Assembly (NCBI GenBank): GCA_002862095.1 | Contig: PHSQ01000001.1 | Span: 1,054,001 to 1,118,000, forward strand | Direction: 5' to 3' | DNA length: 64,000 nt | Source: Methylocystis sp. KS32 | GTDB lineage: Bacteria; Pseudomonadota; Alphaproteobacteria; Rhizobiales; Beijerinckiaceae | In this document: positions 31,482 to 38,045 of the stretch, piece by piece | How the letters are laid out: every line of letters starts with the position of its first letter | How positions within the stretch are numbered: the first letter of the stretch is position 1 | Notes under the pieces: model-generated | Databases searched by the model: none | What the model saw: the letters and a program-made list of their open reading frames with translations, nothing else | What the model was told of the DNA's origin: nothing | Position numbers and translations under genes: made by a program

Positions 31482-32350
31482 ACTGGTATTCGAACGTCGT
31501 CCCCCCGAAAATAAAGGCGATCCTCAAGCGCGAGGCGCCCGAGAATCTTTGGGTCAAGTGCCCCGAGAGCGGTCAGCTCGTTTTCCACAAGGACATCGAG
31601 GCCAATTTATACGTCGTGCCGAGTTCAGGCTATCACATGCGCTTTCCGGTGGAAGCGCGTCTCGCCAGTCTTTTCGATGACGGCGAGTGCGAATTGATGA
31701 CGACCCCCGAGCCGCCGACCGATCCGCTGAAGTTCCGGGACATCAAGCGCTATTTGGACAAGCTGAAGGAATATCGCGTCAAAACCGGGCGTCCCGACGC
31801 GGTCACCGTCGCGATCGGCCGATTGAAGGAAATTCCTGTGACCGTCGCGGTTCAGGATTTCGAATTCATGGGCGGGTCGCTGGGCATGGCGGCGGGCGAA
31901 GCCATCATCGCCGCCGCGACTTACGCACTCGAAAAACGCACGCCTTTCATCATCTTCACCGCGTCCGGCGGTGCGCGTATGCAGGAGGGAATGTTCTCGC
32001 TCATGCAAATGCCGCGAACAACCATTGCCGTGCAGAGGTTGCGTAAGGCGCGCTTGCCCTACATCGTTGTCCTTACCAATCCCACTACGGGCGGCGTGAC
32101 CGCCTCTTACGCTATGCTGGGAGACATCCATATCGCCGAGCCCGGCGCCATTATCGGTTTCGCCGGAGCACGGGTTATCGAGCAGACAATTCGCGAAAAA
32201 TTGCCGGAGGGCTTTCAGCGCGCGGAATATTTGAGAGATCACGGGATGGTCGATATGGTGACGCCGCGTTCCGAGATGCGGGACACCTTGGCGCGGCTTT
32301 GCGGTTTGTTAACGAAGGCCCCAGCCTCGCGCCGATCGTCGGCGGCCTGA
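31478..32350 (+). CDS. accD: acetyl-CoA carboxylase carboxyltransferase subunit beta
   Basis: [57 protein letters not shown]. Confidence 0.96.
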
Positions 32351-32367
32351 ATTGGAGAACGCCCCGC

Positions 32368-33684
32368 ATGGATCAGCGTGACGCGATCCTATCGCGATTG
32401 CTCGACCTTCATCCCAAGAAGATCGACCTTTCGTTGGGACGTATCGAAAGACTGCTGGAGGCGATCGGACGGCCCGATCTCACGCTCCCGCCGGTCATTC
32501 ATGTCGCTGGCACCAATGGGAAAGGTTCGACGCTCGCCTTCATGCGGGCGATATTGGAGGCGGCCGGCGCGCGGGTTCATGTTTACACCTCCCCGCATTT
32601 GCTGCGATTTAACGAGCGCATCCGCCTTGCCGCGCCGGGCGGTGGAAAGCTAGTCGACGACAAGACCCTGACGCAGGTGCTGGAGCTTTGCGAACGCGCC
32701 AATGGCGCTCAACCGGTGACCTTCTTTGAAATCACCACGGCGGCGGCGTTTCATCTGTTCGCCAGCACGCCGGCCGATTGGCTGCTGCTGGAGACGGGGC
32801 TTGGCGGCCGTTTCGACGCGACCAATGTAATTTCTTCGCCCAAGGCGACGGTGATCACTTCCGTTTCTCTCGATCACCAGGAATTTCTCGGCGAAACCGT
32901 CGAAAAGATCGCCTTTGAAAAAGCAGGGATATTCAAGCGGGGCGCGCCTGCGGTCATCGGCTTTCAATCGGGCGGCGCGAAGCGCATACTCGAGCGGGAA
33001 GCCCGGCGCGTCGGGGCGCCGCGGATCGTCGCTGGGGAAGATTTTCAGATTTTCGAGGAAAACGGCAGGCTGGTGTTCGAGGACGCGCGGGGATTGCTCG
33101 ACCTGCCCGCCCCGCGCCTGCCCGGACGCCACCAGCACCAGAACGCCGCAGGCGCGATCGCTGCGCTGAGGGCGGCGATCCCCGAAATTTCGATCGACGC
33201 CATCGAGGCGGGGCTGCGCAAGGCGGAATGGCCGGCGCGACTCCAGCGTCTATCTATTGGTCATGTGCTTGATTTGGCGCCGGTTGGAGCCGAGTTCTGG
33301 ATCGACGGCGGCCACAATGAAGACGGCGGGCGGGTGTTGGCCGAGGCCATGGCCGAGTTCGAGGAGAAAAATCCGCGCCCGCTGGTGTTGATCTGCGGCG
33401 CCCAGACCACGAAGGACATCACTGCGCTGCTTCGGCATTTCGTCGGTCTCGTCCGCACGGTGGTCGCTGTGCCGGTGGAAGGCGAGCACAAGAGTTGGGC
33501 GCCCGAGGACGTGGCGTCTGCGGCGCGCTCTCAAGGCATGGAAGCGCGGGCGGCGGCGGGCGTCGAGGAGGCTCTGGCCCTTGTGCGCGAGGCCGCTCTT
33601 GGCCAGAGCCCGCGCATTCTGGTCGCCGGTTCGCTCTACCTTGCGGCGAGCGTGCTGGCCTTGAATGGTTCACGAATCGAATGA
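32368..33684 (+). CDS. folC: folylpolyglutamate/dihydrofolate synthase
   Basis: HVAGTNGKGSTLAFMRAILEAAG, YTSPHLLRFNERIR, LLETGLGGRFDATNV. Confidence 0.95.
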   Translation: MDQRDAILSRLLDLHPKKIDLSLGRIERLLEAIGRPDLTLPPVIHVAGTNGKGSTLAFMRAILEAAGARVHVYTSPHLLRFNERIRLAAPGGGKLVDDKTLTQVLELCERANGAQPVTFFEITTAAAFHLFASTPADWLLLETGLGGRFDATNVISSPKATVITSVSLDHQEFLGETVEKIAFEKAGIFKRGAPAVIGFQSGGAKRILEREARRVGAPRIVAGEDFQIFEENGRLVFEDARGLLDLPAPRLPGRHQHQNAAGAIAALRAAIPEISIDAIEAGLRKAEWPARLQRLSIGHVLDLAPVGAEFWIDGGHNEDGGRVLAEAMAEFEEKNPRPLVLICGAQTTKDITALLRHFVGLVRTVVAVPVEGEHKSWAPEDVASAARSQGMEARAAAGVEEALALVREAALGQSPRILVAGSLYLAASVLALNGSRIE

Positions 33685-33797
33685 GAAGGCGCAGGCCTTG
33701 CCGCCTGCTTTTGGGGCGGGATAGGGCGAGGCAGGCCACGCCATTCCCTGACGAGGCCGAGCGCGGGAAGTCGGCGCGGCGTGCGGGAGCAAATGCG

Positions 33798-34910
33798 ATG
33801 ACCTTGATGTTGGCGAGCGTAATGTCGCCCGCGGAGGCGGCAATAGCCATCGAGCGGGGAGCGGACATTATCGATTGCAAGGATCCCTCGCGGGGAGCGC
33901 TTGGCGCATTGCCGCTGACCGAAGTCACGAGAATCGTCGACGCCGTGAATGGACGCCGTCAGGTCAGTACTGTGGTCGATTTGCCCCATGACGTCGCCCA
34001 CGCCCGAGCGGCTATCGAGGCCGCCGCCGCGACGGGCGCCGAATTCGTAAAATTCGCCTTGCCGTTGACGCCGGACGCCCAGGAGATCATTGACGAATTG
34101 GCGCCTTTGGCGGCGCGGCGTCGTCTCGTGGCCGTATTGTTCGCCGATCTCGGTCCGGACTTCGATGTTCTGGAACGATTGGCGGAAGCGGGGTTCGAAG
34201 GCGCGATGCTCGACACCGCCCATAAGGGAAAGGGTCGCCTGCTCGACGCGATGAGCGTTGGCGCCCTGGCGGAATTTGTCGGGCGATGCCGAGCTTTAAA
34301 GCTCGTCGCCGGATTGGCGGGTTCTCTGGAATCGCCGGATGTCCCCCGTCTGCTGGTGATGGCGCCGGATCTCCTGGGGTTCCGCGGCGCTCTATGCGCC
34401 AATGGCGAGCGTCGAAACACGCTCGACGCGAAGGCCGTCACTCTAATCCGCGGTCTCATTCCGCGTGCTTCGCGGTCTTCCGATCATATCGCCGACCAAA
34501 GCGACGAAGTGGATCATGTCTTCGTCCGTGACCTCGTGATGCCGATGGAGATCGGCGCCTATGGTTTCGAGCGCGGCCATACTCAGCGCGTCCGCTTCAG
34601 CGTGGAAGTCGAGGTTTCGCGGACAAACGGTCCCGACGACATGCGCGTGGCGTTTTCTTACGACGTCATCATGGACGCTATAAAAATCATACTCGCGACC
34701 GGCCATATCGAACTCGTCGAAACGATAGCCGAGCGCCTGGCCGAGCGCATATTGTTGCACGAACGTTCGCGCGCGGTGAGCATCGAGGTCGAGAAGCTTG
34801 ATGTCGCGCCGCCGGGTTCGGTGGGGGTGCGCATACGTCGGGCGCGACCGGCGCCTCTTTCGCTCAACCCGACCATTATCGCCAGAGCTTGGGCGGTTTC
34901 CTCGCCGTGA
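33798..34910 (+). CDS. fusion of (5-formylfuran-3-yl)methyl phosphate synthase-like (MfnB/DUF556) and dihydroneopterin aldolase-like (FolB) domains
   Basis: N-domain MLASVMSPAEAAIAIERGADIIDCKDPSRGALGALP; C-domain IGAYGFERGHTQRVRFSVEVEV...ELVETIAERLAERIL...VSIEVEKLD. Confidence 0.85.
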   Translation: MTLMLASVMSPAEAAIAIERGADIIDCKDPSRGALGALPLTEVTRIVDAVNGRRQVSTVVDLPHDVAHARAAIEAAAATGAEFVKFALPLTPDAQEIIDELAPLAARRRLVAVLFADLGPDFDVLERLAEAGFEGAMLDTAHKGKGRLLDAMSVGALAEFVGRCRALKLVAGLAGSLESPDVPRLLVMAPDLLGFRGALCANGERRNTLDAKAVTLIRGLIPRASRSSDHIADQSDEVDHVFVRDLVMPMEIGAYGFERGHTQRVRFSVEVEVSRTNGPDDMRVAFSYDVIMDAIKIILATGHIELVETIAERLAERILLHERSRAVSIEVEKLDVAPPGSVGVRIRRARPAPLSLNPTIIARAWAVSSP

Positions 34911-35536
34911 ATTCGGATGGAAAGCGCCCACTTGTCGCGAAATTGGGGGGCAGCCTATGGCGCTCGCCAAATCTGGCCGGTTGGGTTTCGATCCTGGGGG
35001 GCGCTGGTCTTCCCATTACATTGGTTCCAGGCGGAGGCCCCTTTGCCGACGCTGTTCGCGCAGCGCAACAGGTGATGGGTTTTTCAAACGACTGCGCGCA
35101 CCTGATGGCGATGTTGGCGATGGAACAATATGGCATAGCGCTCGCGGATAAATTCAGCGGCCTTGGGCTCGCGTCCACGCCGGAAGAAGCTCGCGCTTTA
35201 CATGCGCGCGGCATGATCGCCGTTTGGCGGCCCACCGAAATGGTCCGCGATGCGCAAGTGCCGCCAAGCTGGGACGTCACCTCCGACAGTCTCGCAGCCT
35301 TTTACGCTCGTCGTAGCGGAACCGACAGACTGCTCCTGATTAAAAGCGTCGACGTGGAAACGGCGCCTGACTTGCACGGCCTCGTTGACGCATCCTTTGG
35401 TCGCTTCTCTGATGGGCTTGAAGTATTTATTGCTGGCCCCAATGCGCTTGCGGCGGCGTCCCAATCATTCGCGCGGAGCGGCATGGCTGGCGTTCGCGTT
35501 GATTTCGCTCACGCGCCACGAAAGAATGAAACATGA
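34907..35536 (+). CDS. amino-acid-kinase-family protein, MfnE-like
   Basis: VAKLGGSLWRS, ILGGAGLPITLVPGGGPFADAVRAAQ; GTGA overlap with preceding stop. Confidence 0.75.
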   Translation: MNSDGKRPLVAKLGGSLWRSPNLAGWVSILGGAGLPITLVPGGGPFADAVRAAQQVMGFSNDCAHLMAMLAMEQYGIALADKFSGLGLASTPEEARALHARGMIAVWRPTEMVRDAQVPPSWDVTSDSLAAFYARRSGTDRLLLIKSVDVETAPDLHGLVDASFGRFSDGLEVFIAGPNALAAASQSFARSGMAGVRVDFAHAPRKNET

Positions 35537-36084
35537 AGAAGGTTCCGACGCCCCGTTGGGGCTGGGCTTTGACAGGCTCCGGCCATTTTTTCACCGAGTG
35601 TCTCGACATGATTCGCACGCTCGACCATGTGGACCTTTTTGTCAGCAAGGCCGCCGCGGAAGTCGTCCGAATGTACAAGCATGATCTCGCGTTGCCCACG
35701 AACATTCGCATTTTCAAGGACACCACCGCGAGCGCGGCGCCGGTGGGGAATTTTTACTACGGCGTTTATCATACCCTCGTCGTCGCGCCCGCCACCTCGA
35801 ACACGGTCGCGAAATGCGTGTTCGGCGTTTCCGATAATCTTGCGACCAATGTGTTCGCGCAGGCGGGCAAATGCCGCGTCCCGACCATCGTTTTCGCCTG
35901 CGACACGGCGCCGGAACTGGAGACTCGCGCGCCCAAGGGCATGGTGAAAGTCTATCCCCGCCGCATTGACCTTGAAAACACCGATCGGCTCAAGAGCTTC
36001 GAGGCCACGCAGGTCGTCGAAAGCCTCGCGGCGCTCAACGAAGCGGTGGAGCGTCGGCGTCGAGAACTGGTCGTCGATGTCTGA
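35533..36084 (+). CDS. flavoprotein, dihydromethanopterin reductase/archaeoflavoprotein-like
   Basis: WGWALTGSGHFFTECL, VSKAAAEVVRMY, LVVAPATSNTVAKCVFGVSDNLATN. Confidence 0.8.
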   Translation: MKKVPTPRWGWALTGSGHFFTECLDMIRTLDHVDLFVSKAAAEVVRMYKHDLALPTNIRIFKDTTASAAPVGNFYYGVYHTLVVAPATSNTVAKCVFGVSDNLATNVFAQAGKCRVPTIVFACDTAPELETRAPKGMVKVYPRRIDLENTDRLKSFEATQVVESLAALNEAVERRRRELVVDV

Positions 36085-37492
36085 GCGCTTGCTGCTTCTC
36101 ACCGGCCATCTCGCCTATCCGCGCCTCGAGCGGATGGTGGCGAGTTTTGGCTTGGCTGCGAAGGATTGGCGCATTCACGATATTGGCGTCAAAGTCGCGG
36201 CGCTTATGACCCAGGAGATCATTTTGCGCCGGCTGCCACGTCCCGTCGAAGCGGATCGGGTCATTCTGCCCGGACGCTGCCGCGCGGATCTTGCCGTCCT
36301 CGCCCGAGAATTCGGTGTTCCATTCGAACGTGGCCCGGAGGAAATCGCGGATCTTCCGGTCTATTTGGGGCGCAGCGGCGGACAGCCAGATCTGTCGCGC
36401 TTCGACATGCGCATTTTCGCGGAAATTGTCGACGCCTCCACCCTGACGGTTTCGGATGTCGTCGCCCGCGCGAAAAAACTATCCATGGCGGGAGCGGACG
36501 TCATTGATCTTGGTTGTTTGCCCGACACCACCTTCGATCATATGGAAGCGACCATCGCGGCGCTTCACGCCGAAGGTCTGAAAGTCAGCGTCGATTCGGC
36601 GAATTTTCAAGAGTTGGAACGCGCGGTCCGCGCCAACGCCGACCACTTGCTGAGCCTCGACGAAAACAGCCTGAGCATTTTGCCGGACGGCTCCAAACTC
36701 ACGCCCGTCCTCGTTCCTTCGCCGCACGGCGATCTCGACTCGTTGCAGCGCGCCGCCGCGAAAGCGCGCGCGAAAAACATCGACTTCATCCTCGATCCGA
36801 TCCTCGATCCGATTCACTTCGGCTTCGCCGATTCCGTCGCCCGTTATGTCGAGCTTCGACGCCGGGAGCCCGACGCCGAGATCATGATGGGCACGGGCAA
36901 TCTGACGGAACTGACCGACGCGGATTCTTCCGGCGTAACCGCCATTTTGCTCGGATTGTGTTCCGAACTGAAAATTCGACACATTCTCACCGTGCAGGTA
37001 AGTCCGCATACCCGTCGAACCATCGAGGAGCATGACGCCGCGCGCCGCATGTTGTTCGCGGCGCGAGCGGACGCCGCACTGCCGAAAGGCTATTCCGACG
37101 CCTTGTTGCAGGTGCACGACAAGCGCCCATTCGGCTCGACGCCGGATGAAATCGCCGAACTCGCGAAGGACTTGAGGGACGCCAATTTTCGCATTGAAAC
37201 AGCGCAGGATGGCATTCACGTATACGCCCGCGATTTCCATTGCCTCGCGACAGACGCCATGTCGTTGTTCGCTTCTCTTGGCGTCGAGAAAGATGGCGCG
37301 CATGCTTTTTATCTCGGAACCGAATTGATGAAGGCGGAAATCGCCTTTTCTCTCGGCAAGCGCTACCGGCAGGACGAGCCGCTGGCTTTTGGAGCGGCCG
37401 TGGACAAAAGCGCGGAAGACGAGGCGCGCTTCAAGGAAATGGGCCACACGATGCGAAAATCTGGCGAGAAGACCGATGCCGCTGATACGTGA
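36077..37492 (+). CDS. dihydropteroate synthase-related protein (DUF6513) of H4MPT biosynthesis clusters
   Basis: LLLLTGHLAYPRLERM; DHPS-like barrel AGADVIDLGCLPDTTFDHMEATIAALHAEGLKVSVDSANFQELERAV. Confidence 0.82.
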   Translation: MSERLLLLTGHLAYPRLERMVASFGLAAKDWRIHDIGVKVAALMTQEIILRRLPRPVEADRVILPGRCRADLAVLAREFGVPFERGPEEIADLPVYLGRSGGQPDLSRFDMRIFAEIVDASTLTVSDVVARAKKLSMAGADVIDLGCLPDTTFDHMEATIAALHAEGLKVSVDSANFQELERAVRANADHLLSLDENSLSILPDGSKLTPVLVPSPHGDLDSLQRAAAKARAKNIDFILDPILDPIHFGFADSVARYVELRRREPDAEIMMGTGNLTELTDADSSGVTAILLGLCSELKIRHILTVQVSPHTRRTIEEHDAARRMLFAARADAALPKGYSDALLQVHDKRPFGSTPDEIAELAKDLRDANFRIETAQDGIHVYARDFHCLATDAMSLFASLGVEKDGAHAFYLGTELMKAEIAFSLGKRYRQDEPLAFGAAVDKSAEDEARFKEMGHTMRKSGEKTDAADT

Positions 37493-38045
37493 GTGCATCG
37501 TTTCGACCCTAAACCCCGCAGGCGAGCCACACCTCGCTCCGCTGGGGCTGATCGAGGAAGGCGAGCGCTGGATCATCGCGCCTTTCCGGCCTTCGACGAC
37601 GCTCAGGAATCTGGAGCTTTCATCGCGGGCGACCGCAAGTTTCATCGACGACGCCGAGATTTTCGCCGGCTTCGTCACCGGCAAGAGGGACTGGCCGACC
37701 GTTTCATTGCCCCAATGGCCCGTTCCGCGTCTCGAGCCCGCGCTTGCTCACGCCGAACTCGAGGTCGAGCGCGTTGAGGACGATGAACAACGACCGCGTT
37801 TTTATTGCATCGTGCGGCGGATTGAAACGCACCGCCCATTCCTTGGGATGAATCGGGCGAGGGCGGCGGTGTTGGAGGCGGCGGTGCTGGCGACGCGCCT
37901 CAACATGCTTCCACGCCAGAAGATCGACAGCGAGATCGCCTATCTCAAAATCGCCATCGAAAAAACAGCCGGACCATCGGAGAAAGCCGCGTGGGAGCGT
38001 TTGATGGCTAGGATAAACGCGCATCGAACTGAAAGCGGCGGTTGA
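37476..38045 (+). CDS. DUF447 family protein associated with H4MPT clusters
   Basis: IRECIVSTLNPAGEPHLAPLGLIEEGERWIIAPFRPSTTLRNL. Confidence 0.8.
   Translation: MPLIRECIVSTLNPAGEPHLAPLGLIEEGERWIIAPFRPSTTLRNLELSSRATASFIDDAEIFAGFVTGKRDWPTVSLPQWPVPRLEPALAHAELEVERVEDDEQRPRFYCIVRRIETHRPFLGMNRARAAVLEAAVLATRLNMLPRQKIDSEIAYLKIAIEKTAGPSEKAAWERLMARINAHRTESGG

Follow-up and report, generated by a model that had tools for sequence, protein, structure and literature searches.

A fused MfnB-FolB protein in an alphaproteobacterium of the Methylocystis group, with a predicted role in both folate and tetrahydromethanopterin synthesis

In an alphaproteobacterium of the Methylocystis group, MfnB and FolB are encoded as one polypeptide by a single gene, whose FolB half is the only FolB found in the genome. 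The aligned active-site residues of both halves are intact, the host's folP and folK genes have no folB between them, and in nearly all sampled fused proteins from relatives that lack the tetrahydromethanopterin (H4MPT) pathway the MfnB half has decayed, with the FolB residues retained. Comparison of these sequences makes it likely that the protein is bifunctional, that its FolB half provides the sole dihydroneopterin aldolase of the cell, supplying folate as well as H4MPT, and that the gene arose by the history proposed below. The gene lies in a window of 64,000 nucleotides, i.e., the whole stretch of DNA that was analysed, and coordinates refer to this window unless a contig is named.

The fusion gene and its two domains

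The gene is a single open frame that translates into 370 amino acids and a stop, with no internal stop codons. We annotated the following features.

33798..34910, + strand: mfnB-folB fusion gene (orf22-folB); one frame, two Pfam domains, start MTLMLAS conserved in relatives
33784..33788, + strand: GGGAG, 8 nt upstream of the ATG of the fusion gene and probably its ribosome-binding site (GGGAG, CAAATGCG, ATG)
33807..34442, + strand: MfnB / 4-HFC-P synthase domain, aa 4-215, a TIM barrel (PF04476)
34443..34517, + strand: variable linker, aa 216-240 (alignment gaps, low identity, pLDDT)
34518..34835, + strand: FolB / dihydroneopterin aldolase domain, aa 241-346 (PF02152, TIGR00526, structure match 3v9o)

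In Pfam searches, the N-terminal half matches PF04476 at 203.1 bits (cut-off 22.4, E = 6.6e-60), covering positions 1-225 of the 228 in the profile, and the C-terminal half matches PF02152 at 64.8 bits (cut-off 31.8, E = 1.3e-17). No other family was matched at E <= 0.1, and hence no archaeal-type MptD. The FolB half also passes TIGR00526 (48.6 versus a cut-off of 45.05), but its score against the folB equivalog TIGR00525 is 45.6 bits, below the cut-off of 72.15, and we therefore class it as a FolB-domain protein rather than as a member of TIGR00525. Among the PRK02227-series models of NCBIfam, which describe single-domain subfamilies, the best is NF002576 (265 versus a cut-off of 297).

An AF2 model of the protein has a mean pLDDT of 90.0, with values below 50 confined to aa 226-233 of the linker. 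Among PDB structures, each half of the model matches members of the family to which it was assigned: the MfnB half superimposes on MJ1099 (4u9p) with a TM-score of 0.87 on the target, and on 4rc1_C with 0.86, while the FolB half gives 0.82 on the target for 3v9o and approximately 0.8 for FolB structures.

We compared the residues of each half with those of solved homologs, and located these candidate active-site positions.

33873..33881, + strand: MfnB D26 and K28, equivalent to D25 and K27 of MJ1099 (alignment to MJ1099)
34050..34052, + strand: MfnB K85, equivalent to K85 of MJ1099 (alignment to MJ1099)
34212..34226, + strand: MfnB D139 and K143, equivalent to D151 and K155 of MJ1099 (alignment to MJ1099)
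34569..34571, + strand: FolB active-site E258, aligned with the Glu of two solved FolB chains
34659..34661, + strand: FolB active-site Y288 (alignment; structure matches include the Tyr53Phe mutant 7su4)
34719..34721, + strand: FolB pterin-anchoring E308 (alignment)
34794..34796, + strand: FolB active-site K333, in IEVEKLD (alignment; structure matches include the Lys98Ala mutant 7su6)

We take D25, K27, K85 and D151 of MJ1099 to be active-site residues alongside Lys155, with K27 presumably being the Schiff-base lysine. Lys155 itself is catalytic (PMC11365854). All five positions are occupied by the same residues in the fusion protein (D26, K28, K85, D139 and K143). The FolB tetrad (E258, Y288, E308 and K333) aligns with that of 3v9o and 3r2e. 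Given these residues, we predict both activities, i.e., that the protein is a bifunctional 4-HFC-P synthase and dihydroneopterin aldolase.

The initial annotation had proposed a fusion of MfnB and FolB on one polypeptide, and this is borne out by the uninterrupted frame and the two complete Pfam domains. The domain search that it suggested, for PF04476 and PF02152, gave scores above both curated cut-offs, with the C-terminal half fitting the dihydroneopterin aldolase profile. It had also named two FolB-like motifs. The Glu in YGFERG is present; the Lys is present too, as K333, but the surrounding motif, given as VEVEKLD, actually reads IEVEKLD (aa 329-335). The archaeal setting in which the fusion had been discussed does not apply to this bacterial genome, whose nearest named genomes belong to Methylocystaceae and Methylocystis. 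Specifically, the closest named relatives of the fusion protein are found in a Methylocystaceae MAG (79% identity) and in Methylocystis genomes (63-67%).

Gene neighbourhood

The fusion gene is preceded by trpA, accD and folC, as identified in profile searches, and is followed by genes for C1 cofactors.

32299..33684, + strand: folC (dihydrofolate/folylpolyglutamate synthase), directly upstream (TIGR01499, 363.9 bits, cut-off 162.65; start estimated from the ORF list)
34907..35536, + strand: mfnE-like kinase gene, orf21 (PF00696; MfnE model NF040622 below its equivalog cut-off)
35533..36084, + strand: afpA/dmrA-like flavoprotein gene (PF02441; TIGR02700 and TIGR02699 below cut-off)
36077..37492, + strand: DUF6513 / dihydropteroate-synthase-like gene, orf19/orf20 region (PF20123, TIGR00284; start estimated)
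37476..38045, + strand: DUF447 gene, orf19/orf20 region (PF04289, PF20766; start estimated)

The probable GTG start of mfnE shares 4 nt (GTGA) with the TGA of the fusion gene (CCGTGAATTC), and the two genes are thus probably translationally coupled. The gene order around the fusion is repeated in relatives. The adjoining mfnE, afpA/dmrA, DUF6513 and DUF447 genes place the fusion in a C1-cofactor gene cluster, in agreement with the initial annotation. With mch elsewhere in the genome (contig C3, 285903-286835), the locus has what is expected of an archaeal-like H4MPT/MYFR cluster. A matching island, orf19-orf20-afpA-orf21-orf22, is known from Methylosinus trichosporium OB3b (PMC3615186), and Orf22 is an MfnB homologue and Orf21 is MfnE (PMC8141765).

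Distribution of fused and separate genes

We searched samples of 61 relatives, 248 genomes of the family (at least 90% complete) and 387 genomes of the class. Across the genus, PF04476 and PF02152 share one frame wherever both are detected among the 61 relatives. PF04476 is present in 98 of the 248 family genomes, and the fusion ORF was checked in at least one genome of each of 15 genera of the GTDB family (g1, g26, g27, g30, g32, g36, g39, g43, g47, g49, g57, g60, g62, g64 and g65). It also occurs in G040, which belongs to another family of the same order. In G080 (genus g45), the FolB ORF has 429 aa and an N-terminal PF04476 match of 16.4 bits, below the cut-off. The exception is genus g31, probably Methylobacterium, where mfnB is separate; G226 of this genus has a folP-folB-folK operon approximately 28 kb away.

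Outside the family, the matches listed in a tblastn search of the 387 class genomes always cover a single domain, never both. In Hyphomicrobium and in G037, mfnB and folB are neighbouring but unfused, and three loci that we read (L067, L069 and L075) show a 4-nt overlap of the two genes (ATGA). In gammaproteobacterial loci, mfnB stands without folB, and a canonical FolB is encoded elsewhere. In G046, from another family of the order, a folP-folB-folK operon is followed by mfnB and the remaining C1 cluster (L130), which is linkage without fusion.

It had been suggested that a frameshift or stop between the domains would argue against a real fusion. None is present, and fused homologues with 42-79% identity occur in many independent assemblies, so that neither a frameshift nor a chimera can account for the fusion; similarly, occurrence in 15 genera is not compatible with an assembly error. 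An artefact or non-functional hybrid could still be imagined, given that the Hyphomicrobium genes are separate overlapping ORFs that a one-base error could join. However, the fusion recurs in dozens of independent assemblies with both catalytic sets conserved, and the probability of such an artefact is negligible.

Some candidates were discarded. Proteins of the alphaproteobacterial family f44 (G318, G430, G510, G578 and G640) initially resembled further decayed fusions, but their FolB is N-terminal and their C-terminal extension is unrelated. This extension (L217, L218, L219, L231 and L232) is uncharacterised, has approximately 160 aa and contains a conserved TRTELDWAMKxG. Other long FolB frames are spurious high-GC ORFs, and in G194 a weak PF04476 match and FolB lie on different contigs.

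The fused FolB as the sole FolB of the genome

The fused domain is the one FolB of the host genome. With the assembly at 92.8% completeness, another FolB might sit in a gap, but complete relatives speak against this: 36 of the 37 genomes in the genus sample, complete genomes included, have at most one FolB, the exception being G003 with an additional, divergent copy. Nearly all relatives bearing the fusion have no FolB besides the fused one, and every Hyphomicrobium genome searched has one FolB, namely that linked to mfnB. The host's folP (contig C6, 915019-915723) and folK (C6, 915822-916202) are approximately 100 bp apart, and a search of the interval between them for FolB gave no match; G226, by contrast, has folB at this place.

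In a FolB tree, the fused, decayed and adjacent types form one group of 46 rows (SH-aLRT 92), two of them class-level outliers, and the folB of the G226 folP-folB-folK operon falls outside it. The tree is based on only 118 columns and does not resolve the finer order. Stand-alone FolB proteins of another, highly divergent type were seen beside the fusion in G003 (L169) and in place of the fusion in genus g55 (L122, L107, L108 and L110).

Decay of the MfnB half in relatives without Mch

We used Mch (methenyl-H4MPT cyclohydrolase, PF02289) as a marker for the H4MPT pathway. Of the 19 fused proteins from Mch-positive genomes, 18 have an intact MfnB pentad, versus 1 of 15 from Mch-negative genomes. 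All 34 proteins retain the complete FolB tetrad, regardless of Mch. A Fisher test of the pentad against Mch gives p = 1.5e-7 when kinship is ignored; independent pairs provide 4 supported contrasts (2 agree, 2 tie, 0 contrary), which are too few for significance. On well-supported branches, at least 4 changes in Mch status are needed. There are two exceptions to the pattern: G179 is Mch-positive with K155 replaced by Thr, and G133 is Mch-negative with every residue intact.

In the Mch-negative loci that we read, the C1 neighbours are absent. In five such genomes (G062, G092, G127, G140 and G080) the fused gene is near folP(-folK) on the same strand, and in G146 it is in the vicinity of folP(-folK). 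Relatives that gave up methylotrophy retain the fused protein, apparently to make folate.

In G102, which we take to be probably Beijerinckia indica, the decayed fusion is followed by a gene for pterin-4a-carbinolamine dehydratase (L116, 10261-10674). Because pcbD is a member of methylotroph H4MPT islands (PMC3615186), this gene may be a relic.

Conservation of the last third of the barrel

Loss of the MfnB residues has not affected all parts of the MfnB domain equally. Between genera, identity in decayed versus active proteins is 0.29-0.31 versus 0.54 for aa 1-74 and 0.23-0.28 versus 0.50 for aa 75-148, while it is 0.39-0.44 versus 0.56 for aa 149-222 and 0.50-0.51 versus 0.54 for the FolB half. 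The conserved region is as follows.

34242..34463, + strand: aa 149-222, forming the final third of the MfnB barrel (regional conservation, also in relatives without the MfnB catalytic residues)

Within it, all 22 rows of the alignment share G175, P180, D181, R184, L185 and P190. An AF2 model of the G102 protein retains the barrel, and its best N-terminal match is MJ1099 with a TM-score of 0.76.

The conservation of aa 149-222 in decayed proteins suggests a supporting role for part of the barrel, perhaps in the stability or assembly of FolB, although the barrel-less FolB of G088 described below speaks against this. We tentatively propose, as a possibility that is not the more probable one, that the barrel is a structural or regulatory subunit needed by FolB, such that the decayed half is a working pseudoenzyme with aa 149-222 under constraint. 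Alternatively, the decayed halves might have gained a new catalytic or ligand-binding role. The retained barrel of G102 and the conservation of aa 149-222 across separate losses would fit such a role, but we consider it unlikely, as identity between genera falls to about 23-31% over aa 1-148, and as G088 has a FolB of 152 aa (L121, contig C377) that groups with a fused FolB in the tree and has no barrel. Possibly, the MfnB half has been lost completely in G088.

Proposed function and history

We propose that the N-terminal barrel would condense glyceraldehyde-3-phosphate into 4-HFC-P, from which the furan of methylofuran derives, and that the C-terminal domain would produce 6-hydroxymethyl-7,8-dihydropterin. 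Both folate and H4MPT use this pterin. From this branch point, one route would lead to folate via FolK and FolP, encoded elsewhere in the genome, and the other to H4MPT via the DUF6513/DHPS-like gene of the operon. That the fused protein is the sole FolB, that it is kept in Mch-negative relatives and that its FolB residues are intact make this dual supply the most likely role of the FolB half.

The initial annotation had assigned the FolB domain to methanopterin rather than folate, in which case another enzyme would provide the folate pterin. The position of the gene within a C1-cofactor operon is consistent with that assignment, as is a PTPS-family gene in the host genome, since PTPS-III enzymes can bypass FolB in some organisms. 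However, this divergent gene (L212, contig C7 of the host G000, 876199-876552, - strand), which encodes the sole PTPS/QueD-family protein, has the motif KYRNLHGH, with Tyr at the Cys of the QueD motif CxxxHGH (the same holds in G002 and G010), and lacks the Glu of the PTPS-III kind. If, as we assume, the Cys marks QueD and the Glu marks PTPS-III, a bypass of FolB is unlikely. The assignment is also contradicted by the single FolB in the genome, by the host folP-folK pair without folB, and by the Mch-negative relatives that keep the fused gene, in several cases beside folP(-folK), and whose FolB active site does not vary. We therefore regard a FolB half dedicated to H4MPT as very improbable. 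The converse, in which FolB serves folate only, the fusion to MfnB merely couples expression in methylotrophs and the H4MPT pterin comes from elsewhere, draws on the folC gene directly upstream and on the decayed relatives, which have no H4MPT pathway but use the protein. Yet both cofactors need the same pterin and another FolB is absent, and the unfused folB of Hyphomicrobium is likewise locked into the C1 cluster, so this explanation is also very unlikely.

For the dual role that we favour, the following history can be envisaged. An ancestral C1 cluster would have had mfnB beside a divergent folB, as in Hyphomicrobium, where some loci have the ATGA overlap. In an ancestor of the family, this stop/start overlap would have been lost, giving one protein. 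With no folB left between folP and folK, folate synthesis would have come to depend on the fused protein. In lineages that lost the H4MPT pathway, the fused protein would have been indispensable; MfnB catalytic residues would have been lost and FolB kept, and in several such genomes the fused gene would then have come to lie beside folP(-folK). The direction and order of these events are our inference; Hyphomicrobium already has only the linked FolB, and the loss of folB may therefore have preceded the fusion.

A scaffolding role had also been suggested for the fusion. The reactions of 4-HFC-P synthase and dihydroneopterin aldolase have no common intermediate, and channelling is therefore not indicated; what may stand of this suggestion is that FolB depends structurally on a portion of the MfnB barrel.

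The fusion would place folate synthesis and the synthesis of methylotrophy cofactors on one polypeptide. With FolB fused to a C1 enzyme, the folate aldolase of these methanotrophs would have no gene of its own and be annotated merely as the tail of a C1 enzyme. Our reading would also correct the assumption that H4MPT producers require a pterin enzyme distinct from that of folate. In addition, the state of the MfnB half can serve as a record of the loss of methylotrophy, indicating whether a lineage, e.g., G102, once made methylofuran. Finally, the relatives form a natural series of decay from enzyme to pseudoenzyme with a fused partner that the cell has to keep, and it becomes testable whether structural reasons preserve a dead barrel.

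Comparison with known systems

Both halves of the protein belong to known families. In the open-access literature searched, we found no description of an MfnB-FolB fusion, although subscription papers, which lay outside this search, may contain an earlier mention. The MfnB half shares its fold and five aligned active-site residues with MJ1099 (4rc1, 4u9p) and with the Orf22 of methylotrophs, and the neighbourhood of the fusion is the same as that of the orf19-orf20-afpA-orf21-orf22 island of M. trichosporium OB3b (PMC3615186). Unlike the fusion, the known MfnB structures are single-domain, and the papers on Orf22 that we found name it as an MfnB homologue (PMC8141765) and make no mention of a FolB domain.

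The FolB half has the fold and aligned E/Y/E/K site of FolB (3v9o, 7su7), but differs in being fused C-terminally to MfnB and in scoring below the TIGR00525 cut-off. It is also set apart in the tree from the FolB of the folP-folB-folK operon in the Methylobacterium-like G226. In methanogens, archaeal MptD, a different dihydroneopterin aldolase family, is the proposed source of the same pterin for methanopterin; the FolB half has the same proposed product but is a bacterial FolB (PF02152). Known FolB fusions likewise have FolB and another enzyme on one polypeptide, but they join consecutive steps of one pathway, whereas the MfnB partner serves a different cofactor and shares no intermediate with FolB. 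Such known cases are the FolB-FolK-FolP fusion of eukaryotes (PMC4224340) and, in Bifidobacterium longum, a FolK duplication with FolB (PMC1971073).
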